A DNA stretch of 64,000 bases from positions 1 to 64,000 of the forward strand of contig JADZBO010000015.1 in the NCBI GenBank assembly GCA_020851995.1, read 5' to 3'. Positions 546-41,153 of this stretch are shown in pieces. The position numbers were made by a program, and so were the translations under genes. The first letter of the stretch is position 1. The number at the start of each line of letters is the position of its first letter. Below the pieces are notes generated by a model, which had not been told where the DNA came from, did no database searches, and saw only the letters and a list, made by a program, of their open reading frames with translations. This DNA comes from Burkholderiaceae bacterium. Lineage in GTDB: Bacteria; Pseudomonadota; Gammaproteobacteria; Burkholderiales; Burkholderiaceae_B.

Positions 546-546
546 A

Positions 547-1312: not shown

Positions 1313-1472
1313 GGTTCATTTCAACGGCAGGTATCGGGCGGGCATTTGGGTGAATTCAAATTCGGCTTTGGGCACACTGCAGATGTTCTCGAGCGTCTCC
1401 TGTCTGGCATTTTGAGCCGGCTTCTCCGCTGCTCCATAGCAGACGTTCAAACGCAGCCACAACGTATTGGCG

Positions 1473-2604: not shown

Positions 2605-2743
2605 GTTTTACTCCTGAGCAAAGTCAAAAATTCTGCCGGTGTGGTGTCCGACAACTGATTTCGGAGAACAACGCACGTCCATACGTTTCACCAAAAGGAG
2701 AAGACCATGACTACCAACGACACGACCAGGAATTCCGCAGCGA

Positions 2744-3577: not shown

Positions 3578-4569
3578 GCGGCAGTCCTCGACGTGTCTGC
3601 CGTGTCCGCTGTACTTGGTGCACCCGTGGGCTGGAGCAGGTACAGGGGTTTGTCGAGCACGCGAATGTCGATGGGCGAGCGCATCCGTGTCACCTCGCCG
3701 TCGAACGCAACCATCACCTTCTTGTGGCTCGGTGCCAGCGTAGGCTTCACCAGCATGCGATGGAATTCGAAGCTTTCCACGCCGGCGGCTTCGCCCAGTC
3801 TTCCCATCGCGCCATGCAGCATCAGCCCGATCATCGATAGCGTGCCGATGGGCCGCAGCATCAGCGCGGCCATGCTGCCGTCGCCGGGCGTGCCGGCAAG
3901 GGTATCTTCCGGCTCCGCACCGAACTGCTGCAGTTGCAGCCGGTTGTTGCCAATGAAGAGCGTCAGGGTCTGCACGTCGCGAACCGTGTCACCCATCTCT
4001 ATGTGCAGGCGTAACCGGCGCTGCGCGCGCAGCAGAGTCGCACAGGCCGCCACGAACGCTACCCAGCGGCTGCGGCCGAAGCGCGCTTTGTAGGCCTCGC
4101 GGTCCTGCAAAAGTTCGGGGTAGATGCCCAGGCTGGCGTTGACCAGGAATACCCGATCGTTGATGGCCGCCACCTGTACCGGCAGCGGGCGCGCATCCAG
4201 CAGCAGCCGCGCCGCAGCCGACGGCTCGGTGGGGATACCATGGGTGCGAGCGAAGTAGTTGAATGTGCCCTGCGGCACCACCCCCATGGCGCAGCCCGCG
4301 GCGTGCGCAGCCTGCGCCACTGTGTTGAGGGTGCCATCGCCACCGACGGCAACCACGGCTGTGCGGGTGGCGATAGCCTGGGTCGCAGCCATCTGGGCCA
4401 CGCGGGGCAGCTCGGCGGGGCGGCTGAACAGCAAATCCCCGCGCCGACCGCCCGCACGCAGCGCGGCTTCGATGACTTCGCGCTTCGACTCCGCGTCGCT
4501 GCTGCCCGCTGCGGCATTGATGACGAACTGCAGCGGTGACACCGGGTCGATCTCGGGGCAGGCAGCCAT
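3574..4569 (-). CDS. Diacylglycerol kinase family / lipid kinase
   Basis: NAAAGS..., VAVGGDGTLNTVAQAAH, PQGTFNYFARTHGIP motifs; start/stop overlap with the phosphoesterase gene. Confidence 0.92.
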   Translation of the reverse strand: MAACPEIDPVSPLQFVINAAAGSSDAESKREVIEAALRAGGRRGDLLFSRPAELPRVAQMAATQAIATRTAVVAVGGDGTLNTVAQAAHAAGCAMGVVPQGTFNYFARTHGIPTEPSAAARLLLDARPLPVQVAAINDRVFLVNASLGIYPELLQDREAYKARFGRSRWVAFVAACATLLRAQRRLRLHIEMGDTVRDVQTLTLFIGNNRLQLQQFGAEPEDTLAGTPGDGSMAALMLRPIGTLSMIGLMLHGAMGRLGEAAGVESFEFHRMLVKPTLAPSHKKVMVAFDGEVTRMRSPIDIRVLDKPLYLLQPTGAPSTADTADTSRTAA

Positions 4570-4601
4570 GGGATGGTCAGGTCGGACTCGGGCCAGGGAT
4601 C

Positions 4602-4775
4602 TCAGGCGTGGCGCAGCAGGTCACCGAAAACGGTGTGCTCGCCCTCCTTGCGATCGGCACCCTGTGCGTCATACAGCACGAGCCAGCTCGCCTTACCTCC
4701 CCACAAGTTGGTTTGGACTCGCGAACCGGGCGCGAACTCCAGACGAACGGCGTTGGGTTTTCGGATGTTCGGCAT
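4602..4775 (-). CDS. Small conserved-looking protein (57 aa), function unknown
   Basis: MPNIRKPNAVRLEFAPGSRVQTNLWGGKASWLVLYDAQGADRKEGEHTVFGDLLRHA; GGAGAA ribosome-binding site upstream; lies inside the longer listed ORF 4602..4952. Confidence 0.5.
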   Translation of the reverse strand: MPNIRKPNAVRLEFAPGSRVQTNLWGGKASWLVLYDAQGADRKEGEHTVFGDLLRHA

Positions 4776-4891
4776 GGGGTGAGTTCTCCAGAAGACGCAG
4801 TGCTGAGGGGGCTGCGAATTGCAGCGAATACCAGCCTCAGCCACACACAACCAAAGTTTGAGGCAGAAGCCGTGTCGTATGTTCAGTTTTT

Positions 4892-5647
4892 TTGGATGTT
4901 GGCGTCCTACAAATGCTGCTTTTTCAGTGCGGCCCAACAGCTTACATTGCACACGCTAACTTATTTCTCTCGACAATCGTGGCAAACAAAAGCAACCAAA
5001 CACTGACCAAGCCAGAATTCCTGAAGGACAAACGACGGGCTACCGTGGAACGGATTGCCGGGGCACACTTGGCATCGATGGACGGCACATTGGCAGACAG
5101 CGTTGGCAAGAGCAATCAGCAAAGGCTAGTCTGGCTGGGTTTGCTCGCAATGCCGCTCATTTTTCCGATCGCACTACCCGGCATGTCTTCCATGGTAGGT
5201 GCTGTCTGCCTGTTGATCGCTTACGGGCTGTGTATCGGTCAGCCAGTGCCTTTGCCGGGCTGGCTCGCCAAACGAGAGATAAATGGTCGCGTCAGGATGC
5301 TGCTGAAGGGCATGATTAACCGGGCCATCCATATCATCGCATTGTGGGGGCGACCCCGCATGCTTTCTTTCAGCAACAAGCCGGCGCGAGTTCTGAACGG
5401 GTTAATGCTATCTGCCGCGGGGGTGTCGATGATGATTCCTGTCCCTATCATCAGTTTTGACAATGTACTGCCTGCGCTGGCCATCGTGTTGCTCTCGTGG
5501 GGGATACGTCTGCGAGATGGCCTGATGCTGCTGGTCGGCTATCTGGTTACTCTGGCGGCGATTGCTTCAGTGATGCTGCTCTGGTGGGGAGGCACCTATG
5601 TTGCTACCGAATTACTCTCGCTGGCCGGACTTGCTTCCAGTCGGTGA
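4892..5647 (+). CDS. Exopolysaccharide synthesis ExoD-like membrane protein (N-terminal start uncertain)
   Basis: LVWLGLLAMPLIFPIALPGMSSMVGAVCLLIAYGLCIGQPVPLPGWL.. ExoD family pattern, several TM segments. Confidence 0.75.
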   Translation: MDVGVLQMLLFQCGPTAYIAHANLFLSTIVANKSNQTLTKPEFLKDKRRATVERIAGAHLASMDGTLADSVGKSNQQRLVWLGLLAMPLIFPIALPGMSSMVGAVCLLIAYGLCIGQPVPLPGWLAKREINGRVRMLLKGMINRAIHIIALWGRPRMLSFSNKPARVLNGLMLSAAGVSMMIPVPIISFDNVLPALAIVLLSWGIRLRDGLMLLVGYLVTLAAIASVMLLWWGGTYVATELLSLAGLASSR

Positions 5648-5819
5648 TCACAGGAACTTTAGATGCAGATTCGCGATTGCTGGTCAATAGCTGATCGGTT
5701 GCCGGCAGCAAACCCAACGAGGAAGGGAGATTGCGGTTGACGACGGACCGAGGGAGATAGAATACTTTGAGAGATGCGGTTAAATTTTCCATCCTTCGAA
5801 GCACAGCGACGGAGGTCCT

Positions 5820-6575
5820 TTGTTTCTGTACGGCCTCATCGACGGGCTGGAGTCAACGATTGAAACGTCCATGCCCCTTTCGCGACTGAAAATCCTTTCT
5901 GCGGGCCTTGTAGCACTCTTAGTCATCATTGCCCCGGCTTCTGCAACCCTGCCACCACGCGTGCAGCTTGGTTCGTTCGCAATCGACGCGACCGAAGTGA
6001 CGATCGGCCAGTTCCGCGCCTACGCCCGATCGAAGTCCCTGACGACGACGGCCGAGCGCGAGGGTGGCAGCTTTGAGTATTCCGGCGGATGGACGCGGCG
6101 GGCGGGCTGGAACTATGAATATCCGCAAGGTCAGCTGGGCTCTGCGTCCGAGCCGGCCGTCCACATCACGTGGGCTGAGGCTGACGCCTACTGCCGCCGC
6201 GCCGGCGGGCGGCTGCCAACCATCACCGAGTGGCGCGCCGCAGCCTATACAGAACAGCGCGACCAGCCGACCGACGGCTTCATCAAAGGGCGCACATACC
6301 CGTATCCCGTTGGCGACGACCCCGCCGGAATGAACAACAACCGGCGCGCGCACGTCGCGGTCGCGAGCACCAAGCGCGGCGTCAATGGTTTGTATGACAT
6401 GGGCGCCAACGTCTGGGAGTGGATTGCCGACAGGCGCGCAGAAGAGGCGCTCACCGCCGGCGGATCGTGGTGGTATGGGCCGGAACAGACGCGGGCCAAC
6501 GGCGCGCAATGGAAGGCCGCGAGCTTCTCTGCTGTCTACATCGGGTTTCGCTGTGCTTATGATGTCAAGGGGTGA
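5820..6575 (+). CDS. SUMF1/formylglycine-generating-enzyme-like domain protein, secreted
   Basis: IDATEVTIGQFRAYAR..WAEADAYCRRAGGRLPTITEWRAAA..NGLYDMGANVWEWIAD..AGGSWW..IGFRCA; N-terminal signal peptide. Confidence 0.88.
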   Translation: MFLYGLIDGLESTIETSMPLSRLKILSAGLVALLVIIAPASATLPPRVQLGSFAIDATEVTIGQFRAYARSKSLTTTAEREGGSFEYSGGWTRRAGWNYEYPQGQLGSASEPAVHITWAEADAYCRRAGGRLPTITEWRAAAYTEQRDQPTDGFIKGRTYPYPVGDDPAGMNNNRRAHVAVASTKRGVNGLYDMGANVWEWIADRRAEEALTAGGSWWYGPEQTRANGAQWKAASFSAVYIGFRCAYDVKG

Positions 6576-6578
6576 GCC

Positions 6579-7157
6579 ATGCGCTTGCATCTGAAACGAC
6601 GGCTGACCGTAGCAGCGCTCCTCTGCTTTGCGCTCTTGGGGGCCGCGCCGCAATCGGTGTTGGCATCCGACGACGCGGCTTGGAAAACACTCGCGCAGGG
6701 GGGAATCGTGCTGTTTCGCCATGCCAATGCGCCAGGTGGGGGCGATCCTGCGGGCATGCGTATCGGTGAATGCGCAACGCAGCGAAATCTGGATGAGCGG
6801 GGCCGCGCGCAGGCGCGCCGGATCGGAGAAGCATTCCGATCTCGCGGCGTCGCAGCCGGGCGCGTTCTGAGTTCGCAATGGTGCCGCACGCGCGATACGG
6901 CGGAACTGGCGTTCCCCGGGCAGCAACGGGACGCGCCGGCCTTCAATTCCTTCTTCGATGACCACGCGAAGGGGCCTGCGCAAACGGCGGCGGCGCGGCG
7001 GCTGCTGGCAGACTGGCGCGGCCCCGGTGCGCTGGTGGTCGTGACGCATCAGGTCAACATCACCGCGCTCACTGGGATCGTGCCGGCATCTGGCGAGGGG
7101 GTCGTGATTCGGCTGGTTGGCACTGACGTTCAGGTGATCGGTACGATCAGCCCATAA
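6579..7157 (+). CDS. Histidine phosphatase family protein, secreted
   Basis: Signal peptide; IVLFRHANAPGG, LSSQWCRTRDTAELAF, VVVTHQVNI. Confidence 0.85.
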   Translation: MRLHLKRRLTVAALLCFALLGAAPQSVLASDDAAWKTLAQGGIVLFRHANAPGGGDPAGMRIGECATQRNLDERGRAQARRIGEAFRSRGVAAGRVLSSQWCRTRDTAELAFPGQQRDAPAFNSFFDDHAKGPAQTAAARRLLADWRGPGALVVVTHQVNITALTGIVPASGEGVVIRLVGTDVQVIGTISP

Positions 7158-7321
7158 GCAAGGCGTTGTTACTGACAATGCCTTTGCGCGTCCAGTATTT
7201 GTCCGGACTGGGCGTCGGGAGTGCCTCGGTTGCAGGAGTACTATTGAGTGCCAGATACGCCCGCAAGCCTTTCAGGTTGGCATTGGGTGTCTCGGCACCG
7301 CAATCGTCGATACTTATTTAA

Positions 7322-7825
7322 ATGACTTCCCTGCTGTTCGATTTCTCTGACCCCCTGGCGGCGACGTTGTGGAACCCGATCAACGATGGCGTGATGGGTG
7401 GAGTATCCCAAAGCCAACTGCGCTATGACCCGGCAGGACATGCCGTATTTGCCGGCCAGGTCTCCTTCGAGAACAACGGTGGGTTTGCCTCGGTGCGCTG
7501 CCAGCCAATGGATATCGGTAGGCGAGATGTCACTGCCTATCTTCTGGACGTATGCGGAGACGGCAAGCGGTACAAACTGAACCTGCGCACCGATAACAGC
7601 TTTGACGGGATCAATTACCAGGTGCAATTCCAGCCACCTGCGGGAATATGGGCGACCTGCCGTCTCGCCAGCGCCGACTTTTTACCGAGTTGGCGCGGGC
7701 GACCGGTACCGAATGCGCCGCCACTCGACTCGGTCCTTGTGCGGCAGATCGGCCTGATGATCGCCGACCGGCAGGAAGGTCCGTTTGCTTTGGCCATCAG
7801 GTCGATTGCCGCAGAAATTGCCTGA
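7322..7825 (+). CDS. CIA30 (complex I intermediate-associated protein 30-like) family protein
   Basis: LFDFSDPLAATLWNPINDGVMGGVSQSQ..F.G.VSFENNGGFASVR pattern. Confidence 0.88.
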   Translation: MTSLLFDFSDPLAATLWNPINDGVMGGVSQSQLRYDPAGHAVFAGQVSFENNGGFASVRCQPMDIGRRDVTAYLLDVCGDGKRYKLNLRTDNSFDGINYQVQFQPPAGIWATCRLASADFLPSWRGRPVPNAPPLDSVLVRQIGLMIADRQEGPFALAIRSIAAEIA

Positions 7826-7827
7826 TC

Positions 7828-8685
7828 ATGCTCTGGTTGCTGGGACTCATCAGTACCGTCGGTCTGTTGGCGGGTTTGCGGTGGGTGGTCCATCGCAGCC
7901 TGGCACCTGAGCGTCTGATCGAGTCGCGAACACCGGCGGATGTCGGTTTGCAATTTCAGGAGGTCACCCTTGCCACCGAAAACAGCAAATCCCTGTTCGG
8001 CTGGTTCATCCCCGCAAACCGGACGGGCCGGGCACCGGCTGTCGTGGCACTTCATGGGTGGGGTGGTAATGCCGAAACCCTGTTGCCATTGGCGGGGCCA
8101 CTTCACGAAGCGGGATTCGCGCTCTTATTCGTCGATGCGCGGTGCCACGGACAAAGTGATGAGGACAGTTTTGCCTCGATGCCGCGCTTTGCCGAGGACC
8201 TCGGTCATGCCATTGATTGGCTGAAACAGCGCGAGGACATTGATCAGAATGCCATCGCAGCGATCGGTCACTCCGTTGGCGCCGGAGCCGTCTTGTTAAG
8301 CGCCTCCTGGCGTAACGATCTTGCCGCCGTGGTGAGCATTGCGGCGTTCACGCATCCGGTGGCGATGATGCGTCGCTGGTTTTCCTCCAAAGGAATTCCG
8401 TACCGGCCCGCCGGCTGGCTGATGTTGCGCTACGTTGAATGGGTGATCGGCCATCGCTTCGACGACATCGCGCCGGTCAACACCATCCGTCGGGTCGCTT
8501 GCCCGACATTGCTGGTGCATGGCGCGGAGGACACCACAGTGCCGGTCAGCGAGGCCCAGGCGATTCACGCCAACCGGTCGGGGGGCCACGTCCAGTTGAA
8601 GGTGGTGGCCGGAAGCCATGACGACTTCGCTGATCTCGATCGGGAACTTCCAGTGCTGGTGGATTTTCTCTCGAAGATCGAATGA
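7828..8685 (+). CDS. Alpha/beta hydrolase with N-terminal TM segment
   Basis: VVALHGWGGNAETL, GHSVGAGA, LLVHGAEDTTVP; in-frame ATG at 7828 within ORF 7648..8685. Confidence 0.88.
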   Translation: MLWLLGLISTVGLLAGLRWVVHRSLAPERLIESRTPADVGLQFQEVTLATENSKSLFGWFIPANRTGRAPAVVALHGWGGNAETLLPLAGPLHEAGFALLFVDARCHGQSDEDSFASMPRFAEDLGHAIDWLKQREDIDQNAIAAIGHSVGAGAVLLSASWRNDLAAVVSIAAFTHPVAMMRRWFSSKGIPYRPAGWLMLRYVEWVIGHRFDDIAPVNTIRRVACPTLLVHGAEDTTVPVSEAQAIHANRSGGHVQLKVVAGSHDDFADLDRELPVLVDFLSKIE

Positions 8686-8694
8686 TTCTGCTTT

Positions 8695-10017
8695 TCAACG
8701 CATTTCAAACGCTTCCTGATGAAAACGGAACCGGCCTTGCCAGAGTCGCCCAAGTTCTTGTTTGAACTTGTCAGCCAGCCCTTGAGGCCCGCAGAACCAG
8801 ATTTCCAGCCGGCGTGAGCCAGCCTGCGCGCCAGCCACCTCGGCGGCGCTCAATGTTTCGCCTTGCTGGGCACCATGAATATGCAGCTGAATGCCTGGCA
8901 ACGCGGCGCAACTTGCCTCCAGGCGGGCGACAAAGGGATCCGTGGTTCGATCGCGGGTGCAGTAGTGAAGTTCTGCAGAGACCGAACCTGGTGTCTGTTG
9001 CAAGGCATCCAGCCACGCGAGGAACGGCGTGACCCCGATCCCGCCGGCAATCCAGATTTGTCGGGCGCCCGAATCCTGGCGGGTCATGTCGAAGCGACCG
9101 TAGGGTCCTTCGACCTTGACGGCCTGACCGACCTGCAGTCGTTTGCTCAGGGTACGGGTGTAGTCACCGAGTGCCTTGATCTGGAAATTGATGCGCCGAT
9201 CCCCCCGATCCGCACTGGCGATCGTGAAAGGGTGAGCACCCTCCTTATCGTCAAAGGTCATGAACGCAAACTGACCGGGGCGATGGCCGTGCCAGTGCTT
9301 GTCGAGCTGGCAACTGACGGTCAGCACATCCTTGGCAGGTTGTTCGATGGCAGTCACGGTCCCGCTGGCGCTGCGCGCTCTGCCGATGCGACCGGCCAGC
9401 GAGTACAGAGCGCCATAGATCCCGGCAGCACTGAGCACCGCGATGAGCATTCCGACTGGCTGGGTCCAGTAATCGGTCGGGGAGAGCATCACTGCATGCA
9501 GCACCAGCATCAGATAGAGCACCGGCATGGCCTGGTGCGCGATTCGCCAGGTTTTGTAGGGGAATCGTTTCCACAAGGTGATGAGCAACATCGCCAGCAG
9601 CAAATAGAACGCCCATTCCCCCATATCCTTCGCAAGGTCGCGTATCACTTCAAGAAAACCGGCGAATGACTCCTTGGGTACGCGGCCTTCGCGTCCGATC
9701 AGTGCTTTGAGAATGTCTCCGACGATTTCCTTGACGAACCAGTGCACGACGGTAAAGCCCACCGCGAGAATGCCGGCCCACTTATGGGTCCGATAGACGC
9801 GGTCCATGCCGCCCAGCGGGGTTTCCAGCCAGACAGGACGTGTGGACAAGAACATCGCCAGCGACATCAACGCGATCGAGAGCAGGCCACTGAGGTAGAG
9901 CGCTTCCTGCCGGATGACCCATGGCAGGCTGCCGCCACTGCTGCCGCCCGTGGCAACGACGTCCATGCCCCAGACCAGAGTGACGATAGCTAAAAGAGAG
10001 CCGAGCAAGATTTTCAT
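8695..10017 (-). CDS. Ferric-reductase-like transmembrane / FAD-NAD(P)-binding flavoprotein
   Basis: Multi-TM N-terminus with HKWAGILAVGFTVVHW, then GQFAFMTFDDKEGAHPFTIAS, VEGPYGRF, IWIAGGIGVTPF, FCGP motifs. Confidence 0.88.
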   Translation of the reverse strand: MKILLGSLLAIVTLVWGMDVVATGGSSGGSLPWVIRQEALYLSGLLSIALMSLAMFLSTRPVWLETPLGGMDRVYRTHKWAGILAVGFTVVHWFVKEIVGDILKALIGREGRVPKESFAGFLEVIRDLAKDMGEWAFYLLLAMLLITLWKRFPYKTWRIAHQAMPVLYLMLVLHAVMLSPTDYWTQPVGMLIAVLSAAGIYGALYSLAGRIGRARSASGTVTAIEQPAKDVLTVSCQLDKHWHGHRPGQFAFMTFDDKEGAHPFTIASADRGDRRINFQIKALGDYTRTLSKRLQVGQAVKVEGPYGRFDMTRQDSGARQIWIAGGIGVTPFLAWLDALQQTPGSVSAELHYCTRDRTTDPFVARLEASCAALPGIQLHIHGAQQGETLSAAEVAGAQAGSRRLEIWFCGPQGLADKFKQELGRLWQGRFRFHQEAFEMR

Positions 10018-10100
10018 TTCAGAATTCCTGGCGAACCGAGCAAGATTTCCATTTCAGAATTTCTGGCGAACCGAGCAAGATTTTCATGTCAGAGCTCCTG
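10001..10100. repeat. Tandem repeat, 35-bp unit, 2 full copies plus about 30 bp of a third
   Basis: ccgagcaagattttcatttcagaattcctggcgaa (10001-10035), near-identical 10036-10070, partial 10071-10100; spans the start codon of the gene above. Confidence 0.95.
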
Positions 10101-10105
10101 CCGGA

Positions 10106-10510
10106 TCATTTTCCAGCAACGGGTTGAGGGTTTCCCGGCTGGGGCAGGTCATCACGGCAACGCCGCTGGTTGCAGTCAGCCGAATTGCGCTGATTGGTTT
10201 TTGCATCGGTACCACTATCTTGATTACGGCTGTTGTCACGCTGCCGCTGGTTGAGGATTTCCCCCGTTTGGGGAGACACATACAACTTGATCCGCCGGCC
10301 CGTCTGATCTGTGGCTTTGACTTCATAGCGACCGCTTTCACGTTCGATCTTCTCGATGTGCCGATAGCCGGCGGATTCGAGTCTGGCGTGCACTTCGGGA
10401 ATCGATAGCCATGTCGCCTGGTCGGTATTGGCGGAGCGGATGTCCTCAGCGTGCGTCGACATTGACAAGAAAATTGTAGCAAGCAGTGCAGGGATGGTTA
10501 ATGGTCGCAT
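10106..10510 (-). CDS. PepSY domain protein, exported
   Basis: Signal peptide; LSIPEVHARLESAGYRHIEKIERESGRYEVKATDQTGRRIKLYVSPQTGEI. Confidence 0.82.
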   Translation of the reverse strand: MRPLTIPALLATIFLSMSTHAEDIRSANTDQATWLSIPEVHARLESAGYRHIEKIERESGRYEVKATDQTGRRIKLYVSPQTGEILNQRQRDNSRNQDSGTDAKTNQRNSADCNQRRCRDDLPQPGNPQPVAGK

Positions 10511-10547
10511 GGTGAAATCTTCCGGTTCAGGAAAGTGTCGGTATCAG

Positions 10548-11039
10548 TCATTCTTCGTAGTAGCCTTGCTCTGCTGCGCTATGGCAGGCAACACAGTTCG
10601 CTTTGGTGCGCACGTCCTTGTGGCGCCACTCCCAGTCAGGCACTTTGCGATGCTCGCTGACCCATTTGGGCAGTTCCGTGATGCGTTGTGGGGCGGATCC
10701 CGGGGCAACCCCTTTGAGTAATTTGCTGCTGAAGCGCTGGCCACCTGCATCGCCGGCGTTGGCAACGAGATAACTGGTGATTTTCTCTGCCGTGGCTGCA
10801 TCCAGACTGGCGTCGTCGCCGAAATGCTTGTCCAGTTCACCCATCATGCGTCGCCATGATTGAGCCGGGAGCATTGACGGGGCAAAGGCCATGTGGCAAC
10901 TACCGCACTCTTCCTTGACGACCGGATCCGTCACCGGCGCGAAGAAATGACGGTCACCGGCCTGGGCACGGGCTAATATCAGGGCAGAAAAAGCCAGGGT
11001 CGCGAGGCCGATTGCAAGCGGGCGATAGGGAATACGCAT
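10548..11039 (-). CDS. Diheme cytochrome c (DHC family)
   Basis: Signal peptide; two heme motifs CGSCH and CVACH; FAPVTDPVVKEECGSCHMAFAPSMLP. Confidence 0.88.
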   Translation of the reverse strand: MRIPYRPLAIGLATLAFSALILARAQAGDRHFFAPVTDPVVKEECGSCHMAFAPSMLPAQSWRRMMGELDKHFGDDASLDAATAEKITSYLVANAGDAGGQRFSSKLLKGVAPGSAPQRITELPKWVSEHRKVPDWEWRHKDVRTKANCVACHSAAEQGYYEE

Positions 11040-11060
11040 GGGGGTCTCCTTTAAATGGGA

Positions 11061-11462
11061 TTACTGACCGATCACGAAGGTGAGCCAGTCACCTTTCTCT
11101 TGCGGCGTGCATTCGCGACCCAATACTTCGGTGCAATTGCGCTTGAACCACTTTTCGACCTTGGCGGGATCTGTGTAACGAGTTGGCGTCACCGACACAG
11201 CAATCGGTTCGATGGCCTTGCCGGTCAGCGTCCGGCCGGCACCCCGGGTGTCCTTGCCGTGACAGGTGGTGCAGGACGGTGTGTCAGGTTTCCCACCCGA
11301 AAAGCTCTGCGTGTGCAGCGCCTCGCCGCGTGCCGCTGAAAAGCCACTTCCCTTGGCCGCCGCCGCATACTGGGCCAGCAGGTCCTCGCGTGGACCAGCA
11401 AAGCTGGTCATGCTGAGTATCATGGCAATAATTCCTGCGGTCACGATCGATCGGTGTTTCAT
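11061..11462 (-). CDS. DUF1924 / SHP-like monoheme cytochrome c
   Basis: Signal peptide; GEALHTQSF..GKPDTPSCTTCHGKDTRGAGRTLTGKAIEPIAVSVTPTRYTDPAKVEKWFKRNC. Confidence 0.85.
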   Translation of the reverse strand: MKHRSIVTAGIIAMILSMTSFAGPREDLLAQYAAAAKGSGFSAARGEALHTQSFSGGKPDTPSCTTCHGKDTRGAGRTLTGKAIEPIAVSVTPTRYTDPAKVEKWFKRNCTEVLGRECTPQEKGDWLTFVIGQ

Positions 11463-31874: not shown

Positions 31875-32177
31875 GTGTCGCGCAATCAAGGCATTCGACA
31901 GTTCTCATCCGGCGTGCCCGACCGCAGCTCGCAATCCGGGCAAGGGATGACCGAATACATCATTATCGTGGCGCTCGTGGCGGTCGCAGCGATCGCGGTG
32001 TTTCAGTATTTCGGGCAAGTACTCAGATCCCAGACCGCGGCGATCGCCAAGGAAGTCGCGGGCGAGGACGGATCTCAGCAATCCCGCTCGGCTCAGACTG
32101 CAGCTGAGTCTGCAGCGGGGCAGGCAATGTCCAAGTCCCTCAAGTCATTCACCGGCGGATCCCCCGGGGGGCAATGA
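31875..32177 (+). CDS. Flp/TadE-type pilin-like protein
   Basis: SG|QGMTEYIIIVALVAVAAIAVFQYFG: prepilin peptidase-like site with Glu at +5 followed by a hydrophobic stretch. Confidence 0.78.
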   Translation: MSRNQGIRQFSSGVPDRSSQSGQGMTEYIIIVALVAVAAIAVFQYFGQVLRSQTAAIAKEVAGEDGSQQSRSAQTAAESAAGQAMSKSLKSFTGGSPGGQ

Positions 32178-33655
32178 TGGCGGTGGTCGTGATCGCGCTG
32201 ATGGCCGTGCTCGCTATGGTGGCCTGGAAGGGCAGCCACACTTTGGGGCACCTGGCGCATGACAAAACTTCGCTCATGCGCGCGACCGATGCCGCAGCGT
32301 ACAGCGCGGCGGTCGTTCAGGCGCGCGCACTCAACCTGCATGCCTATTTGAATCGTGCGCAACTTGCCCATCAGGTGGCCATGGCTCATCTTGTGACGAT
32401 TGCCTCTGCAGAGCGCTTTCGCGCAATGCAGGCCCGTCAGTCGAGCGCATTCAATCCGCCAGCAACTGTGATCGGAATGCTCTTCGGCGCCGACCACGCC
32501 GCGGCCTACCTGGCTGCCCGCTCGGGTGGTGCGGATGGCGTTGCGCTTGGTCAGTTCGAGCAGGCGTTTGACCGGCACGACGCGCTCTTGCACGATGTGA
32601 TTGCGGCGGCGCGTGATCAGCAGATCCGGGACTTGATGCCGATGCGCGATCATGCGATTCGTCAGGTGCTTGCGCGCAACGTGGGTGCGAGTGGCTCTTC
32701 CTTGAAATCCGGCTCACTTGAGGCGCTCGGTCTGGCCGTCACAGTGCGTCTTGACGACTGGCCGGGCAGGGTACAGCGATTCGGTGGTGACAGCCCTGCC
32801 TGGCAACGCCTGCTCTACGCCGTGTCGCGCCAGCACGGATATCTCAATGAGCGCAATTCCAACCGACGTAATCTATGGGCCGTAAGCGTGCGCTGCCCGC
32901 ATAAGCGGCACGAACTGCGACGACGCGGCGAAACCTCCCTGGATCGCCAGGGTCACTGGCGCTCAACTGACACGCTGTCGTTTCATGCCTTGCGCTCGAA
33001 CCAGACAATCGGTTGTTATGAACGCGAATACCCCATGGGCTGGGCGATTTTGCGTGCAGACGGTCTCGTGCCAGGTTTGGCCACGAGAGTGTCGTCTCGC
33101 ACTGGCCCCGACGGTTCGCAGTCCATTCACGCTTCAGGCGGCACACTTGCGTCGAATCATACGATCGCGTCGCTCAGCAACGACGATGAACCACTTCAGC
33201 GGTTTTCAGACCAGGCATTCTGGCGCTGGGTCGGGCAGCAGGCCTCGCCTGGCTGGGATATTTTCAATGGTTCAGATAACCGGCTTGCCACGCGATGGGG
33301 TCAAGGGTCTGGTATTCATTGGGCAACGCGGGGTCGTCCCGCTCACGCTGACCTTGCGCCCGACCAACGTGGGCCGTTGCGGGTAGTGCTTGATGTCCAT
33401 CAGGCTGCTGCAGGTCGCCAGCCGGCGCGCACAGCCGTTCCGCGGCTCACCACAGCGAAACGATCAGGTATCTCCGCGGATCGCGAAAATCCAATCCGGG
33501 CAACCGCAGCGGCACACGCCTATTTTGCGCGTCGCCACCGTCGTGTCGATGGCCGTGAGGAGAGACCAAACCTGTTTCATCCCTACTGGCACGCGCGACT
33601 GATCCCCGTGCCTGAACAGCCTTCGGAATCGACTGCAGAGCTGGGCGCACGCTGA
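32174..33655 (+). CDS. TadG/TadE-like Flp pilus-assembly protein
   Basis: N-terminal TM MMAVVVIALMAVLAMVAW then DAAAYSAAVVQARALNLHAYLNRAQLAHQVAMAHL; ATGA overlaps on both sides inside the tad locus. Confidence 0.65.
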   Translation: MMAVVVIALMAVLAMVAWKGSHTLGHLAHDKTSLMRATDAAAYSAAVVQARALNLHAYLNRAQLAHQVAMAHLVTIASAERFRAMQARQSSAFNPPATVIGMLFGADHAAAYLAARSGGADGVALGQFEQAFDRHDALLHDVIAAARDQQIRDLMPMRDHAIRQVLARNVGASGSSLKSGSLEALGLAVTVRLDDWPGRVQRFGGDSPAWQRLLYAVSRQHGYLNERNSNRRNLWAVSVRCPHKRHELRRRGETSLDRQGHWRSTDTLSFHALRSNQTIGCYEREYPMGWAILRADGLVPGLATRVSSRTGPDGSQSIHASGGTLASNHTIASLSNDDEPLQRFSDQAFWRWVGQQASPGWDIFNGSDNRLATRWGQGSGIHWATRGRPAHADLAPDQRGPLRVVLDVHQAAAGRQPARTAVPRLTTAKRSGISADRENPIRATAAAHAYFARRHRRVDGREERPNLFHPYWHARLIPVPEQPSESTAELGAR

Positions 33656-34251
33656 TGGAAATGACTTCGCAGCGTGGGCAATCCCTGCTTGAGGCGATGC
33701 TCGGCCTCACGGTACTTGGCTCCCTGGGTATCGCAGTGCATCTCACAGGGCGCTGGCATGATGTATCGATCAGTGCCCTGCAAGGCAGTGCATTGAGCGG
33801 ATTTCTGCGTACGTTCGGTCAGGCAACCGGGCAGGGAACTCGTCTCGAGTCCGGTCAGCCAGGCATTCAGTCCGGCGGCCCAGTTCCGGTGTTGATGAAG
33901 GAATGGAATATTGGCGATGACGGACTGGTCGTTGCCGATTCCGGCCCGGTCGACGTCGTCAGGCAAGTGCAGCTTCCCACCTGGGCACCTAAACCTGAGA
34001 TTGCACGTCGTACCTATCTGCACGGTGGTACCGGTCATGGTCAGTCCGACGCGCATATTCAGTCGCACACAGGGTCGTCGAAGACGGCGTGGTCTGCGGC
34101 AGCCGAACATTCGGCAGAACTCGTGCGTCAGGCGGGCGCGACGATGCGTCCTGTCGATTCACCCTGGCGCCGTCCCGCACCGGACTCCGACTGGCTGACG
34201 CACTGGGCCGGCTTCGTGCCCGCCAGACTGCTGCGCAGGCCGTCCCAATGA
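33655..34251 (+). CDS. Prepilin-like protein of the tad locus
   Basis: SQRG|QSLLEAMLGLTVLGSLGIAVHL: G|Q...E5 processing motif plus hydrophobic segment. Confidence 0.65.
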   Translation: MEMTSQRGQSLLEAMLGLTVLGSLGIAVHLTGRWHDVSISALQGSALSGFLRTFGQATGQGTRLESGQPGIQSGGPVPVLMKEWNIGDDGLVVADSGPVDVVRQVQLPTWAPKPEIARRTYLHGGTGHGQSDAHIQSHTGSSKTAWSAAAEHSAELVRQAGATMRPVDSPWRRPAPDSDWLTHWAGFVPARLLRRPSQ

Positions 34252-35087
34252 TCTTTGATTGTCCGGCGCGCCCGCTTTCCAGGATTCTTGTTGCAATCGG
34301 TGTGTTCGTCACTGTGGCCGGCATTCCGATGTCCGCGCATGCCGCCGGAGCGTCTGCGAATGCCGACAGCCTGCTGGCGGCAATTCGCTTGCCGGATGGC
34401 GTCGAGTCGACCCCAGTCCTCGACGGGGTTCACTGGCAGGGATTCCTGCTCGAACTGGTTGCGCTGGAGATCCCTATGACGGTTGAACATTTTCTTGCCC
34501 AGCTTGCAGCCGTGGTTCCCGAGCGAACGCTGCTTTCAGTCTCACAGGGAATTTACATCGTCCAATGGGAGGTCGACCGGGCGTCGATCACGGTCCACGT
34601 GGTGCAGGCTCCACAGAATCGGGCGACCGGGGTGCTTACGGCAATGCGCTTGCGCCCCGAGGCGGCATCGCGCGTTTCCTTGCAGACGCAATGTCGTGAC
34701 CCGGTCGAGCGGCATATCGCCGGTCAGAAGCAAGCGCATGCGCTGTTCGATCTGATCGATCCGGCCGATGCGCGCATCGCGGAATTGAACGGATTCAGCG
34801 ATTGCCTGACGTTCGATGCAACGCGTGCTGCGCCCGCTCCAGGGCAGCAATCCATCGCCCGAATCAGAGGCTTTGTACTGAATGCAGGAGTCGATGAACT
34901 GAGCGCGCGCCTGCTCCGCGCAATGCCGCGCGATGGCTGGACCAACATGCACCTTCATGCGTCGAGTCGCCCGATGCGCAGTGTTTCGATTGAGACGGCC
35001 TGCGGGCATCGCCGCCTGCGAATGCATATTGCCCAACTCCACGGGCGCACGACGGTCATCGCGTTTGAGACGGATGAATGGCGATGA
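34248..35087 (+). CDS. Exported hypothetical protein of the tad locus
   Basis: In-frame ATG at 34248 (ATGA overlap); signal peptide LSRILVAIGVFVTVAGIPMSAHAAG; no confident family. Confidence 0.55.
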   Translation: MIFDCPARPLSRILVAIGVFVTVAGIPMSAHAAGASANADSLLAAIRLPDGVESTPVLDGVHWQGFLLELVALEIPMTVEHFLAQLAAVVPERTLLSVSQGIYIVQWEVDRASITVHVVQAPQNRATGVLTAMRLRPEAASRVSLQTQCRDPVERHIAGQKQAHALFDLIDPADARIAELNGFSDCLTFDATRAAPAPGQQSIARIRGFVLNAGVDELSARLLRAMPRDGWTNMHLHASSRPMRSVSIETACGHRRLRMHIAQLHGRTTVIAFETDEWR

Positions 35088-35965
35088 AACTTACGCAATC
35101 GGGTCGTGTTTGGACGTTGCTCGCCATATCCACGGCGCTTGGCGGTATGGCGGCCTGGGCCATCGACCGGCATCTTGAGCACAAGACCCGTGAGATTGAG
35201 CGCACCGAGCAGGGACACCAGGTTGCGCGTTTGGTCGCGGCGCACCGAATCGAGCCGGGAGCGATCCTGCATCTGTCCGATCTTGCCACGCGTGAGATTC
35301 CGTCGCGCTGGGCAGATCCAGGATCGATTGCCACCGAGGAAGTCGCGCGCGTGGTCGGAATGCGTGCGACTGTCGAACTGATTGCCGGGCAGCCCATCCT
35401 GAGCGCGCATCTCGAGACGCCCGCCGAGGCTGGGTTGGCCACACGGTTGGCAAATGGCAAACGTGCTGTGACCATTCCGGTCGACCAGATCAGTTCCCTG
35501 TCCGGAATGTTGAATCCGGGCGACGTCATCGACTTGTACGTGTCGTTTGCGCACCGTGGTCAACGCCTGACGGCGCCCTTGCTGAACGAAGTTCAGGTGC
35601 TGGCAACCGGGCGCCAGCAGGTTGCTTATTCAGAGGATCGAGCCGGTGTCAGGCCTGCGGAGTACGCGACGGTTACGCTGGAGACGACTCCGGCCGAGGC
35701 GGTCAAGCTTGTTGCCGCGCGGCAGGATGGCACCCTGACTGCAGTGCTCAGTAATCGGGGGGTCAGGGGCGCGCACGCTCTGTCAGCGGACAAGCCCACC
35801 CAGGGTGGTGGCCATCTTGCCGGATTACTGGGTCTTGAGCAGCCCAGGGCACCCGCTCCAGTGCCGGTGATCTACGGCGATCGATTGCTGGCTCTGGATC
35901 AGGGAGAGTCATTTGAAGCCGACTCCGGTCTGGCGACGCAGACCACCGGGCAATCGTCACGATGA
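35084..35965 (+). CDS. cpaB: CpaB/RcpC Flp pilus assembly protein
   Basis: N-terminal TM, SAF-like domain VAAHRIEPGAILHLSDLATREIP, RAVTIPVDQISSLSGMLNPGDVIDLYV. Confidence 0.92.
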   Translation: MKLTQSGRVWTLLAISTALGGMAAWAIDRHLEHKTREIERTEQGHQVARLVAAHRIEPGAILHLSDLATREIPSRWADPGSIATEEVARVVGMRATVELIAGQPILSAHLETPAEAGLATRLANGKRAVTIPVDQISSLSGMLNPGDVIDLYVSFAHRGQRLTAPLLNEVQVLATGRQQVAYSEDRAGVRPAEYATVTLETTPAEAVKLVAARQDGTLTAVLSNRGVRGAHALSADKPTQGGGHLAGLLGLEQPRAPAPVPVIYGDRLLALDQGESFEADSGLATQTTGQSSR

Positions 35966-37380
35966 GGGGAAAACAGAGCCTGAATCGGCTTCTCGCCATC
36001 CTGCTTGCGCTCACCCCGCGCGTCGGGTCGGGCGTTGAGGCATCCGTGGCCCGTGATGCTACGCCCATCTCACTGGAAACGGGGGCCTCCCAGGTGCTTC
36101 GACAACCGGGCGTCACCCGGATTGCAGTGGGAAATAGTCATGTCGTTCAGGCCACCGCGGTTAATGGCCGCGAGGTGCTGGTCTTTGGAAAAATGCGCGG
36201 GTCTACCACCGTTGATCTCTGGAACGCCTCCGGGCATCGGACCTCCTATGTCGTTACCGTGACACCCGAGGGGCTGCGTCGGATTCATTCGGAAATTTCC
36301 GGATTGCTCGGCAAAATTCCGACTGTGCGCAGCGTGATCGTCGGGGACAAGATTGTCATCGAGGGGGAGGATATCGCCGACGCTGACCAGGCGCGAATTG
36401 CAGCGTTGGCATCCCGGTATCCGGATGTCATCGACTTCACAAGTCGGGTCGGCTGGGATCGTATGGTGCTGCTTGATGTCCAGGTCATTGAGATTCCCAC
36501 ATCACGGATGCAGGAACTCGGCATTCGGTGGGATCCTTCGAGCGGCAGTGGCATGAGTACAGGCCTTGCATGGGATGCAGGCTCCGCGCGCCTGGACCAG
36601 CGCCCCGGCGACGCGGCGCTTGGCGCGGCCTTCCCGATGAAGCAGGCGGCCGGATACCTGGGTGTCAACGCGCTCCTGTCGGCAAGGTTGGCTGCCATGT
36701 CAAAGTCGGGCGAGGCTGTCGTGCTGGCGCAGCCTCAACTGTTGGCTCGCAGCGGGTCGACGGCATCGTTTCTTGCCGGCGGCGAAGTGCCCTATGCGTC
36801 ATCGGACAAAGACGGCAAATCCACAACCACCTTCAGGAAATATGGCGTGTCGCTCAACATCACGCCACATGCGGATCGCGCGGGAGCCATCCGGTCCAGG
36901 ATCGAGGTCGAAGTCAGTTCGGTCGATCAGACGATCACTTTGCCGGGTGGTCCGGCGCTCAAGATTCGCAAGGCTTCCACGGAATTCAATGTTCGGTCTG
37001 GCCAGACGCTTGTCGTGGGCGGATTCCTGTCGCGCGAGCGTTCGTCGGAGCGCGACGGATTGCCGGGTCTGTCCAGATTGCCTTTCGTGGGAGGACTGTT
37101 CGGAATCGACCGCACTCATGCGCGTGAAACCGAACTTGCGATTTTTGTAACCCCGGTCATCGTCGACGCGCAACACCCCGATCTGCAGGCACGTGTGACC
37201 AGCGGTCACGCGATCGTTTCGAGAGCCTTTCCCGAGGCAAACCAACTAAATCATCCAGTCCGTGCGCTCGGTCCGGGCGCGTCCAGCCCATTTTCGCCGG
37301 GTTCCTCCTCCCAATGGGAGGAGGATGACGATTTGTCTCGCCCACTGCAAAACGAGTACGACTTTGATGATTCCAATTGA
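35962..37380 (+). CDS. cpaC: CpaC/RcpA secretin of the Flp/Tad system
   Basis: RIAVGNSHVVQATAVNGREVLVFGKMRGSTTVDLW; secretin core PQLLARSGSTASFLAGGEVPY..VGGFLSRERSSERDGLPGLSRLPFVGGLFG. Confidence 0.94.
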   Translation: MRGKQSLNRLLAILLALTPRVGSGVEASVARDATPISLETGASQVLRQPGVTRIAVGNSHVVQATAVNGREVLVFGKMRGSTTVDLWNASGHRTSYVVTVTPEGLRRIHSEISGLLGKIPTVRSVIVGDKIVIEGEDIADADQARIAALASRYPDVIDFTSRVGWDRMVLLDVQVIEIPTSRMQELGIRWDPSSGSGMSTGLAWDAGSARLDQRPGDAALGAAFPMKQAAGYLGVNALLSARLAAMSKSGEAVVLAQPQLLARSGSTASFLAGGEVPYASSDKDGKSTTTFRKYGVSLNITPHADRAGAIRSRIEVEVSSVDQTITLPGGPALKIRKASTEFNVRSGQTLVVGGFLSRERSSERDGLPGLSRLPFVGGLFGIDRTHARETELAIFVTPVIVDAQHPDLQARVTSGHAIVSRAFPEANQLNHPVRALGPGASSPFSPGSSSQWEEDDDLSRPLQNEYDFDDSN

Positions 37381-37398
37381 TTGAAGTTTGCAGCCGAT

Positions 37399-39069
37399 AT
37401 GATTGAATTTTCTATCCAGTTCGAAGATGGACGGCGACAGACCAGACGTTGTGCAAGTCCGGTCACGATTGGACGATCAACGGGCTGTGAGCTCCAGATC
37501 TCTCATTGGCGAGTTGCCCGCCGTCACTTGCAGGTTCGGATTGTCGCCGGCCAGGTGCATGTCGAGGATCTCGGATCGCTCTCCGGTACCAGAATCAACG
37601 GCCAGCGGGTCTGGCAGTACGGACCGGTCAAGCCGACCGATGAGTTGATTGTCGGCCCCTGCCTGATCGCTGTTCGGACTGCTGGCGAGATCGCCGCTTT
37701 GCACGAGAGCAGCGCAGTGACGACCGCGTCGGCGGACGTCGCTGGTTCACCGGCTGTTGCGCCCGAGCAGGTTCCGGGTGACCGAATGGCCGAGAGCCGT
37801 ATCCCCTTCGATCCGTCCGTGTGCCTTGCGGACGACGAGCGGTTGATTCGCCAGGATCTGCACGCGGCACTGCTCAAGGCAATCGATTTGCGTCGTCGCG
37901 ATCTCGCTTCATGCACCGATGACATGCTGCGAACGGAGTCTGAGCAATGCGTCAGTGAACTGCTTCGCAAAGATCCGCGCATTGTCAGTGAATCACAGCG
38001 CAACAGGTTGCTGCGCCTCGTCGTCGACGAGGCGGTCGGGTTGGGCGTACTCGACCCGCTGCTGGAAGATCCGGCCGTGACCGAAATCATGGTGAACCGT
38101 CACGACGATATCTTCGTCGAACGCGGGGGCAGGCTGACGCGTCACACACAGCACTTCAGTTGCGACGCCGCAGTACGCAGCGTGATAGAACGTATCGTCT
38201 TCCCGCTCGGACGTCGTATCGACGATGCATCGCCGATGGTCGACGCACGACTTCAGGACGGTTCACGGCTAAACGCGGTCATTGCGCCCATTGCGATCGG
38301 CGGTGCTTGCCTGACGATCCGTAAATTTCCGGCAAGTCGACTGACCATGGCGGCTCTGGTGGATCTTGGTGCCATTGACATCGCGGTTGCCGACTTCCTT
38401 CGATTATGTGTGGAATTCCGGCGCAACGTTCTGGTTTCAGGCGGAACCGGCTCTGGCAAGACCACGCTGCTGAACGTTCTCGCCTCCTGCATCCCTCAGG
38501 ACCAGCGCATCATCACGATTGAGGATTCCGCGGAAATGCGCATCGATCATCCCCACGTGGTGTCACTGGAGGCGCGTCCGGAAAACGCCGAGGGTCAGGG
38601 GCTCATTACGATTCGACAACTCGTGCGCAACGCGTTGCGTATGCGTCCAGACCGCATTGTGGTTGGGGAGGTTCGCGGGCCTGAAGCCGTGGACATGCTC
38701 GCCGCGATGAATACCGGCCACGAGGGATCGCTTGCCACCTTGCACGCCAATTCCCCGCGCGATGCACTTGCCCGGCTTGAAACGATGGTCCTGATGGCGG
38801 GACTCGGGTTGCCCGTCACCGCAATCCGGGAGCAAGTCGCCGCTGCCGTGCACATCGTCGTGCAACAGTGTCGGTTGCCCTGCGGAAAGCGGATCGTATC
38901 CTCAATCGCTGAAGTGACAGGTCTGGAATCGGGCACGGTGCAACTGCAACCCTTAGTAGGCTTTGATGCGCAATCAGGACGCTTCCGCGGATCAGGCCTG
39001 CCACCTGCATTTCTGATTCAGGCGGCGCAGGGTATGACCGCATCCGTACAGGAATGGTTCGCGCCGTGA
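37399..39069 (+). CDS. tadA: TadA/CpaF secretion ATPase with N-terminal FHA domain
   Basis: FHA motif VTIGRSTGCELQISHWRVARRHLQVRIVAGQVHVEDLGSLSGTRINGQRV; CpaF core VTEIMVNRHDDIFVERGG, VSGGTGSGKTTLLNVL, GEVRGPEAVDMLAAMNTGHEGSLATLHANSP. Confidence 0.95.
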   Translation: MIEFSIQFEDGRRQTRRCASPVTIGRSTGCELQISHWRVARRHLQVRIVAGQVHVEDLGSLSGTRINGQRVWQYGPVKPTDELIVGPCLIAVRTAGEIAALHESSAVTTASADVAGSPAVAPEQVPGDRMAESRIPFDPSVCLADDERLIRQDLHAALLKAIDLRRRDLASCTDDMLRTESEQCVSELLRKDPRIVSESQRNRLLRLVVDEAVGLGVLDPLLEDPAVTEIMVNRHDDIFVERGGRLTRHTQHFSCDAAVRSVIERIVFPLGRRIDDASPMVDARLQDGSRLNAVIAPIAIGGACLTIRKFPASRLTMAALVDLGAIDIAVADFLRLCVEFRRNVLVSGGTGSGKTTLLNVLASCIPQDQRIITIEDSAEMRIDHPHVVSLEARPENAEGQGLITIRQLVRNALRMRPDRIVVGEVRGPEAVDMLAAMNTGHEGSLATLHANSPRDALARLETMVLMAGLGLPVTAIREQVAAAVHIVVQQCRLPCGKRIVSSIAEVTGLESGTVQLQPLVGFDAQSGRFRGSGLPPAFLIQAAQGMTASVQEWFAP

Positions 39070-39914
39070 TGGCACTGCTTGCGATGCTGGGCGCAGGCAT
39101 CTCGGTTGCGCTGGCCAGTTGGGCGGGACATCGCATGGTTTCGCATGCGCTGATACAACATCGCTCTCTCTTTACCGATGAAGCCTCGTCCAGTCTGCGG
39201 GATCTGTTTGTGTTCGTCGACGTTGCTCGCCTCTGGCCGGCGTTGATTATTCTCGCCGCAAGCAGCGGCCTGGTTGCCTGGCTCTTGACAGGCAGCGTCC
39301 TGTTGGCCTTGATCGCTGCAGTGATTCTCCTGGTATTGCCCAGAGTGCTGCTCGCCCGTGCCCGGCGCGCGCGTCTGGCGCGACTCGACGCGCAACTCCC
39401 GGAGGCTTTGACCGCGCTGGGCGCGTCATTGCGGGCGGGAGCCAGTCTGGGCGTCGGTTTGCAGACCGTACTTCAGGATGCCCAGGCTCCCTTGACTCAG
39501 GAGTTTGGTCTGATGTTGCGCGAGCAACGCATGGGCCTGACCCTGGCTGCTGCCCTAGGCAACTTGTATCAACGAATGCCTTCGGAGAGCGTTCAGATGG
39601 TGGTGGTCGTGCTGCAGGTTGCGGGCGCGACGGGAGGTTCGGTTGCCGGATTGCTTGAACGCCTCGCGGAAACCTTGCGTGCGCGACAGCATCTGGACAT
39701 GAAACTGGAAATGCTGACATCGCAGGGCAGGCTGCAGGCCTGGGTCATCGGTGCGCTGCCCTGGGTCTTGTTGTTGGCCCTGACTCAGGTCGATCCGCAT
39801 TCGGCGGAATTACTGATGGGAACTTCGCGCGGCCATGCCGTATTAGCGGCAGTCGTCGGGCTGGAATTACTTGGCGCGATCATGATGCGTCGGATTTTGC
39901 GCATCGTCACTTAA
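39054..39914 (+). CDS. tadB: TadB, Flp/Tad inner-membrane protein
   Basis: T2SS-F domain pattern: LDAQLPEALTALGASLRAGASLGVGLQTVLQDAQAPLTQEFGLMLREQRMGLTLAAAL. Confidence 0.9.
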   Translation: MVRAVMALLAMLGAGISVALASWAGHRMVSHALIQHRSLFTDEASSSLRDLFVFVDVARLWPALIILAASSGLVAWLLTGSVLLALIAAVILLVLPRVLLARARRARLARLDAQLPEALTALGASLRAGASLGVGLQTVLQDAQAPLTQEFGLMLREQRMGLTLAAALGNLYQRMPSESVQMVVVVLQVAGATGGSVAGLLERLAETLRARQHLDMKLEMLTSQGRLQAWVIGALPWVLLLALTQVDPHSAELLMGTSRGHAVLAAVVGLELLGAIMMRRILRIVT

Positions 39915-39924
39915 TGAGGTCATC

Positions 39925-40794
39925 ATGTGGCTTTCGATCGGCTTGGGTTGTGTTGCGCTCATGGTGGTTACTGCTGTGCCGCTCATGGTGGTCGCGGCGA
40001 GGACTGCTCTGAATCCGCAGGAGCGCGCCCGACACGCGAAGACCATTTCCGTGCGTTGCGGTTTGCTGTTTGACTGCCTGGCGAGGCTCGTCGATCCGTT
40101 GACCACCTGGAGCTATCGGCACCGGGTTGCTGGTGCATTGCAGCGCGCTGGTGTTGTGGGATGGACGTCGGCGCATTTGTTTGCGCTGCAACTGGTCTGT
40201 GCGATTGGCCTCGCCGTCGTGAATCTGATGACGGTGTTCAATTTTGCTGAGACACCTGTTGTGGCCACCAGTACTGCCGCGACATCAATTCTTGGCTGGC
40301 TGATTCCGGCATTCTGGATGCGTTGTCGCCGTCGTGCGCGGATCGCGGAAATTACGCGGGGGATGCCATCTTTTCTGGATCTTCTCTGCCTTGGACTGGA
40401 TTGCGGCATGAACCTGCAGAGTTCTGTGCAGCTTGCACTGGATCATTTGCCCGCGGGTGCGTTGCGCGCGGAATGGAGTCGCATGTTGATGGATATGCGC
40501 TCTGGGATGACGCGGGCAGAGGCGTTGCGCCAACTGTCGAACCGGGTTGACGTTCCCACCATCCGGCAACTGGTTGCCTCGCTGGCACAAAGTGAGCGGG
40601 TGGGACTCAGCCTGACGCGGATTCTTGGCGACTTTGCCCGCCACGAACGCGCCAGGCGAATGATGGCGGCAGAGAAGCAAGCCATGCGTGCCCCCGTCAA
40701 GATGCTTGTACCCCTGTCCTTGTGCATCTTCCCCTGTACGTTTCTCATACTGGGGTTTCCGGTGTTTATCGTCGTATCGGACCTGGCACCTTGA
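39925..40794 (+). CDS. tadC: TadC, Flp/Tad inner-membrane protein
   Basis: GMPSFLDLLCLGLDCGMNLQSSVQLALDHLPAGALRAEWSRMLMDMRSGMTRAEALRQLSNRVDVPTIRQLVASLAQSERVGLSLTRIL. Confidence 0.92.
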   Translation: MWLSIGLGCVALMVVTAVPLMVVAARTALNPQERARHAKTISVRCGLLFDCLARLVDPLTTWSYRHRVAGALQRAGVVGWTSAHLFALQLVCAIGLAVVNLMTVFNFAETPVVATSTAATSILGWLIPAFWMRCRRRARIAEITRGMPSFLDLLCLGLDCGMNLQSSVQLALDHLPAGALRAEWSRMLMDMRSGMTRAEALRQLSNRVDVPTIRQLVASLAQSERVGLSLTRILGDFARHERARRMMAAEKQAMRAPVKMLVPLSLCIFPCTFLILGFPVFIVVSDLAP

Positions 40795-41153
40795 GGCCCG
40801 TGGCCTTGCCCGATGCCGCGCAGCCTGCCGCGCTGATTTTGCGCCGTGCTTTACTTTGGCACGAGCGGGCGGCGGGTTTGCTCCGGGGACCGCCTTTGCT
40901 GCCTGGTCACGGTCTCTGGATTGCGCGCTGTCGCGCAGTACACACGATTGGAATGCGTTATCCGATTGCGGTCTTTTTTCTGAACGAAAATGACCTGGTC
41001 ACGAGCGCAAGGGGTGTTGTGCGGCCTTACTCCTGGGCGATCGACCACGCTGCGGTATCGGTGATTGAAACACTTGAGGTCAAGGCAGGCGATTTGTGCC
41101 CTGCGATCGCCCGCGTCGAGCAATCGGTGCTCCTCGCGCGTGGCTCGCGTTGA
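40791..41153 (+). CDS. DUF192 family protein
   Basis: RGPPLLPGHGLWIARCRAVHTIGMRYPIAVFFLNENDLVTSARGVVRPYS; probable TTG start overlapping the tadC stop (alternative GTG at 40800). Confidence 0.8.
   Translation: MRPVALPDAAQPAALILRRALLWHERAAGLLRGPPLLPGHGLWIARCRAVHTIGMRYPIAVFFLNENDLVTSARGVVRPYSWAIDHAAVSVIETLEVKAGDLCPAIARVEQSVLLARGSR

Follow-up and report, generated by a model that had tools for sequence, protein, structure and literature searches.

The Tad pilus operon and its pilin genes

The window, i.e. the whole stretch of 64,000 nucleotides that was analysed, comes from contig 15 of its source genome (3.9 Mb, 290 contigs, 97.4% complete). At positions 31875-41153 it carries ten intact genes on the plus strand that encode a Tad/Flp (type IVc) system, a kind of thin adhesive pilus (Table 1). 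Judged by its sequence, this is an intact and conserved Tad pilus operon of a type that lacks TadZ and has an FHA domain on its motor ATPase TadA. Except for the DUF192-like frame, neighbouring genes overlap or are separated by at most 16 bases: ATGA overlaps are found at 32174, 34248 and 35962, a TGATG overlap at 33655, and overlaps of 10 and 16 bases at 35078 and 39054, respectively. The joint at 37381 has a 0-base gap and that at 39925 a 10-base gap. The gene order, the coordinates and the tight packing with ATGA overlaps proposed in a preceding sequence-only reading are borne out. Scans for promoters and terminators yielded sites no more frequently in the operon than in shuffled sequences.

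Table 1. Genes of the Tad operon in the window
Gene	Position	Strand	Product	Supporting matches
flp (gene 1)	31875..32177	+	Flp/T4c pilin precursor, 100 aa, GTG start	PF04964 E=2.8e-4, under Pfam cut-off
tadG-like (gene 2)	32174..33655	+	minor pilin/predicted tip backbone, 493 aa	PF13400 via orthologs
tadE-like (gene 3)	33655..34251	+	minor pilin, 198 aa, G/QSLLE with Glu at +5	PF07811 via orthologs; N_methyl E=0.014
gene 4	34248..35087	+	exported, fast-evolving protein, 279 aa	no family matches; position kept in relatives
cpaB/rcpC	35078..35965	+	CpaB/RcpC	TIGR03177 3.2e-45, PF16976 1.6e-24; RcpC structure 9gzr E=8e-4
cpaC/rcpA	35962..37380	+	secretin	PF00263 1.2e-38, PF13629 1.9e-14
tadA	37381..39069	+	FHA-TadA/CpaF class III motor ATPase, 562 aa, TTG start	PF00498 2e-12, PF00437 1.3e-63
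tadB	39054..39914	+	inner-membrane platform	PF00482 1.1e-15
tadC	39925..40794	+	inner-membrane platform	PF00482 2.5e-17
DUF192-like	40722..41153	+	longest frame overlaps tadC by 73 bases, start uncertain	PF02643 1.8e-5

Strong Pfam matches were obtained for CpaB, CpaC, TadA (FHA and T2SSE) and both platform proteins (T2SSF). Together with the pilins, they supply what characterizes a Tad or type IVc system in the broad sense: a single ATPase of the CpaF/TadA type, tadB and tadC, CpaC and CpaB, Flp, and TadE/TadG. The operon CpaC is the sole PF13629 match of the source genome. In TadA, the FHA domain comprises residues ~14-96 and the CpaF core residues ~155-530 (Pfam spans 28-91 for FHA and 220-496 for T2SSE). 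The CpaF structures 9e24, 8rkd and 8rjf match residues 155/161 to 529 with ~1e-96, and the FHA part is unmatched by them. No TadF was recognized among the minor pilins. TadD and RcpB, already noted as not visible, are missing from the locus, to which the search for them was limited. A type II secretion system was rejected, as neither GspC nor GspG was matched and the ATPase is of the CpaF type with a far weaker GspE match. A plasmid origin was rejected, too: TadA homologs from plasmids are all less than 60% identical, and coverage of the protein reaches 80% or more for just one of them.

According to the sequence-only reading, the operon has no classical short Flp and contains three non-canonical genes. 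However, gene 1 is, by its sequence motifs, a true Flp pilin. PF04964 is matched by 15 of 19 Flp orthologs, and gene 1 looked non-classical because the window protein reaches just 21 bits on this profile (cut-off 32). Cleavage is predicted at SG/QGMTEY, leaving a mature protein of ~78 aa. G22, Q23, M25, E27 and Y28 are invariant among the 19 orthologs, with Glu and Tyr at +5 and +6 after the predicted cut. With the Flp of locus L001, the nearest relative, the window protein shares 83% identity. Likewise, genes 2 and 3 can be assigned by homology to TadG-type and TadE-type minor pilins, so that only gene 4, for which no family was found, keeps the label non-canonical. The TadG assignment is based on 8 of 20 gene 2 orthologs that match PF13400; the window protein itself does not. 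Its AlphaFold model (pTM 0.76) shows an N-terminal helix of 90 residues, further helices and a beta-rich distal part. No fold match was found in the PDB. The predicted shape resembles that described for the large tip protein KilN/TadG of the Kil system (see below). The window tadG begins right at the hydrophobic helix, with its start overlapping the flp stop by ATGA (32150-32200). An upstream RGQAL-like segment is present in TadG of most relatives and absent from the window protein and that of L001. For gene 3, PF07811 is matched by 8 of 21 orthologs. Here, E13 (the Glu at +5) and P189 are invariant, and a C-terminal motif, D..W.R..P..DWL..W, is conserved.

Conservation among relatives

Searches with each protein using tblastn revealed the same gene order in the Alcaligenaceae loci examined (Candidimonas, Advenella, Bordetella genomosp. 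4, Castellaniella, Achromobacter, Pusillimonas and others). It is also found in Massilia, Duganella, Roseateles and Thauera-type relatives, where the spacing between tadG and cpaB is longer. The named loci suggest that the family concerned is the Alcaligenaceae. A TadA of the class encoded by this compact locus is present, as classed by score, in 130 of 151 family genomes. In many of them, e.g. all six genus mates of the source genome, the operon supplies the sole TadA-like match. All six same-genus genomes sampled contain the operon. In one of them (G026, locus L155), tadA has an in-frame stop and gene 4 is lost, which suggests that this copy is decaying.

Absence of TadZ and its mutual exclusion with FHA

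TadZ is described as a hub that recruits and places Tad machines. Since no control genome gave a match with PF16968, this search was uninformative, and a profile built from eight genuine TadZ proteins of ordinary Tad loci of the same family was used instead. The profile matched in 63 of the 151 family genomes. In agreement with the sequence-only reading, the operon locus has no TadZ, and the profile detected none in the source genome as a whole or in its six genus mates. Within 25 kb on the same contig, TadZ accompanies the compact-class TadA in none of the 130 genomes, the surroundings that can be inspected being shorter for those loci close to contig ends; in 77 of the 130, the whole genome is devoid of TadZ. 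By contrast, class-I TadA has TadZ within 5 kb in 20 of 20 cases among the matches listed. Walker-motif scans for TadZ and the peptidase were in line with the profiles, but missed some TadZ.

TadZ and the FHA domain exclude each other. Within the family, ~30 distinct compact loci combine FHA with a lack of TadZ, whereas 10 of 10 ordinary loci show the reverse, TadZ without FHA. The 80 named TadA loci divide into 69 with FHA, none of them with TadZ, and 11 without FHA, 8 of which have TadZ. Of the loci in a wider phylum sample, 8 have FHA and lack an adjacent TadZ, and 32 of 32 without FHA have TadZ adjoining TadA. One of the 8 FHA loci has a weak ParA-like match ~6.5 kb away, and in another FHA is in a neighbouring frame. 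In three distant loci (L071, L077 and L078, from Nocardioides and two uncultured phyla), which belong to the 8 named FHA-less loci with TadZ, TadZ and TadA form one open frame of ~820-980 aa. TadZ occupies there the place of FHA at the TadA N-terminus.

A phylogeny of TadA, which had been recommended along with the sequence-only reading, separates FHA-type systems without TadZ from FHA-less systems with TadZ. A single branch (support 85) sets the FHA-less/TadZ rows apart, with the window TadA on the FHA-type side. This means that the exclusion is a strong clade marker, but not repeated evidence for replacement. Two rows with neither FHA nor TadZ (L076 and L042) nest inside the FHA side. In L042, the lack of FHA may be due to a frame error.

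Prepilin processing

In line with the sequence-only reading, no A24 prepilin peptidase is encoded in the operon locus. Among the matches listed, from which weak ones could escape, an A24 peptidase lies within 25 kb of the compact locus in 1 of 130 cases. In eight relatives (L144-L147 and L149-L152), a lone peptidase is located directly beside coaE, which corresponds to the usual pilD-coaE arrangement, with panC nearby. No pilus motor ATPase was found within ~8 kb on either side of it. In L147 and L149, a small LuxR-like gene is situated near this peptidase. Because the locus has no peptidase and the relatives have a lone one beside coaE, prepilin processing in trans is, on sequence grounds, well supported for the lineage. 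In the source genome, it may take place as well. The suggestion of a divergent Tad subtype that depends on a peptidase in trans gains support from both the missing TadZ and peptidase and the coaE-adjoining peptidase of the relatives.

The sole A24 peptidase of the source genome is encoded on the 6.9-kb contig C257, beside TadC and half of TadB. On the minus strand at 4779-6806 (locus L093), a frame of 675 aa combines a spermidine-synthase/MFS-like protein with the C-terminal half of TadB, and is followed by tadC and the peptidase gene. As TadB is joined in frame to an unrelated protein, C257 carries a remnant, a fusion or chimera, or a misassembly. The composition of the contig fits the source genome, but cannot decide its origin. 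These genes are the only Tad-like ones outside the operon, and no complementary half of the locus, an eventuality considered in the sequence-only reading, was detected. As second half, C257 was rejected: in the order-wide sample, the few other family members give no match to its TadC at E<=1e-30. All its matches of 38-45% in this sample belong to other families, and its resemblance is to ordinary Tad lineages.

Relation to known systems

CpaF proteins with an N-terminal FHA domain have been published as class III CpaF. They originate mostly from betaproteobacteria, with E3HIW0 of Achromobacter xylosoxidans as an example (PMC12019362). The window TadA has the same composition of FHA, linker and CpaF core. 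The paper classifies the ATPase alone and does not mention TadZ/CpaE in its main text (PMC12019362). In Kerstersia gyiorum, a second tad cluster, tadE-orf-rcpCA-tadABC, was described as truncated and, for want of a recognized flp, as likely null (PMC6461280). It shares family and gene order with the window operon, and flp is present in the loci studied here. Very probably, both are the same locus. Consequently, the subtype is in part already classified: the ATPase architecture and the Kerstersia locus have been reported. In the literature searched, which did not include most subscription journals, no report on the exclusion of FHA and TadZ and no statement that FHA-type Tad systems lack TadZ was found. 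A large survey permits a peptidase encoded elsewhere and counts TadZ among the Tad traits that archaeal systems share.

The canonical Tad systems of Aggregatibacter and Caulobacter (flp-tadV-rcpCA-tadZABCD) have Flp, CpaB, CpaC, the TadA core, TadB, TadC and TadE/TadG in common with the operon. In contrast to it, they possess TadZ and TadV, and in the ordinary loci examined TadA carries no FHA. The Kil system of Myxococcus xanthus comprises the FHA-fused KilF as single ATPase, and its pilus is polymerized at prey contact (PMC8460266, PMC12075869). As far as genes can tell, the operon resembles Kil in the FHA-motor fusion, the single ATPase, the lack of TadD and RcpB (for the operon, a lack at the locus), CpaB and the secretin, the minor pilins at the tip and the probable help of PilD. 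Kil differs in being spread over two gene clusters with numerous additional genes, in having several tips and a short peptidase of its own (KilA), and in serving predation.

Interpretation

What the operon specifies is probably a complete machine of type IVc (Tad/Flp), belonging to the FHA-CpaF 'class III' lineage, that uses a PilD-type peptidase in trans and in which FHA does part of the job of TadZ. In this machine, Flp would be the filament subunit, and TadE and TadG would form the tip or initiation complex. CpaC would be the pore through the outer membrane, with CpaB as its conduit in the periplasm. TadB and TadC would constitute the platform and FHA-TadA the motor. A housekeeping PilD-type peptidase would cut the prepilins in trans, and we infer that a pilus is assembled at the surface. 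FHA at the TadA N-terminus may recruit or place the motor at the platform and, most likely, share the work of TadZ. It would probably act by protein contact, for which phospho-threonine need not be required.

More far-reaching is the proposal that FHA on TadA is a functional replacement of TadZ that largely dispenses with phospho-threonine recognition, in an anciently separate TadZ-free branch that recruits its motor in cis and borrows PilD. We regard it as tentative. Several observations count against the reading of the operon given above. In the source genome, which showed no pilD-coaE pair, the only A24 peptidase is located on the doubtful contig C257. Direct verification of FHA covers ~30 of the 130 compact loci of the family, the others being classed by score. 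On a long branch within the FHA clade, Aliidiomarina locus L076 (~8648-11260) lacks both FHA and TadZ, so that neither of them is strictly required. In addition, the exclusion rests on about one split and could reflect lineage history instead of replacement, and a test with independent pairs had too few pairs. The split and L076 would also fit FHA and TadZ being functionally unrelated, with TadZ lost or never acquired, e.g. because placement is unneeded, and FHA serving another role. This is possible, if rather unlikely, as the exclusion spans several phyla in the samples taken and both TadZ and FHA are found at the TadA N-terminus.

Alternatively, FHA could be a conventional phospho-threonine switch: a Hanks-type kinase would signal contact or envelope stress and FHA would license assembly, as proposed for FHA proteins of type VI secretion systems and Kil. 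The authors of the Kil work suggest signalling through FHA, and Kil assembles solely when prey is touched. The family FHA domains (36 sequences, ~31 distinct) retain G31, R32 (97%), H49 (97%) and N73-G74, and the source genome has several strong matches to Hanks-type kinases (C263:3597-4238, C261:61336-62070 and C214:5901-6491). However, the serine of the SRxH motif, which contacts the phosphate in FHA domains, is replaced by Ala or Gly in each of the 36 sequences. Nor is the canonical Asn at 68 conserved. Furthermore, no Pkinase match above the Pfam cut-off was obtained in 88 of the 130 genomes with the compact-class TadA. The substituted serine and these 88 genomes favour a role of FHA in protein contact, and, from the sequences, a phospho-threonine switch is doubtful.

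Two further alternatives would deny the operon a surface pilus. The sequence-only reading considered secretion or assembly of a short pseudopilus, and killing has been linked to Tad relatives, Kil among them. Since the Flp pilin is not missing, the short pseudopilus lacks support. A secretion machine without surface pilus is improbable in view of the conserved Flp major pilin, the complete set of Flp, TadE and TadG, and the tip proteins therein; moreover, neither a linked effector gene nor components of the type II secretion type were recognized. Least of all do we expect a degenerate remnant. The Kerstersia authors favoured this view for their copy owing to the missing flp, and the genus mate with the in-frame stop in tadA and without gene 4 agrees with it. 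In the window, by contrast, all ten frames are intact, including the highly conserved flp, and the wide distribution of the system, often as sole TadA-like match of a genome, points in the same direction.

In every sample taken, the members of a large and conserved branch have no TadZ beside the motor and carry FHA in the same place, which makes the role of TadZ directly testable by removal of a domain. Loci that were set aside as truncated probably encode whole machines. In addition, a possible reason is provided why pilD-coaE is kept in genomes without an adjacent pilus motor.

Accessory genes

Locus L088 (contig C175, ~53-8390) comprises genes for a secretin, PilO/PilP-like proteins, a motor ATPase, a platform protein and prepilins directly upstream of alaS. 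This gene set, which includes no peptidase, can be likened to that of the R64 thin pilus (type IVb).

The profile searches proposed along with the sequence-only reading gave a result for gene 3 (see above) and none for gene 4: neither the window protein (Pfam, NCBIfam) nor its orthologs match a protein family. Gene 4 is very divergent in sequence among relatives despite its conserved position. Its model (pLDDT 71.5, pTM 0.65) consists of two similar beta-beta-alpha-beta4 domains. A fold search returned weak single-domain matches to structures of the EagT6/PsbP/DcrB type, none with E<=0.001, which were not used to deduce a function. The DUF192-like protein reaches 25.2 bits on PF02643, just under the cut-off of 27, and its gene stays 3' of tadC in most relatives.

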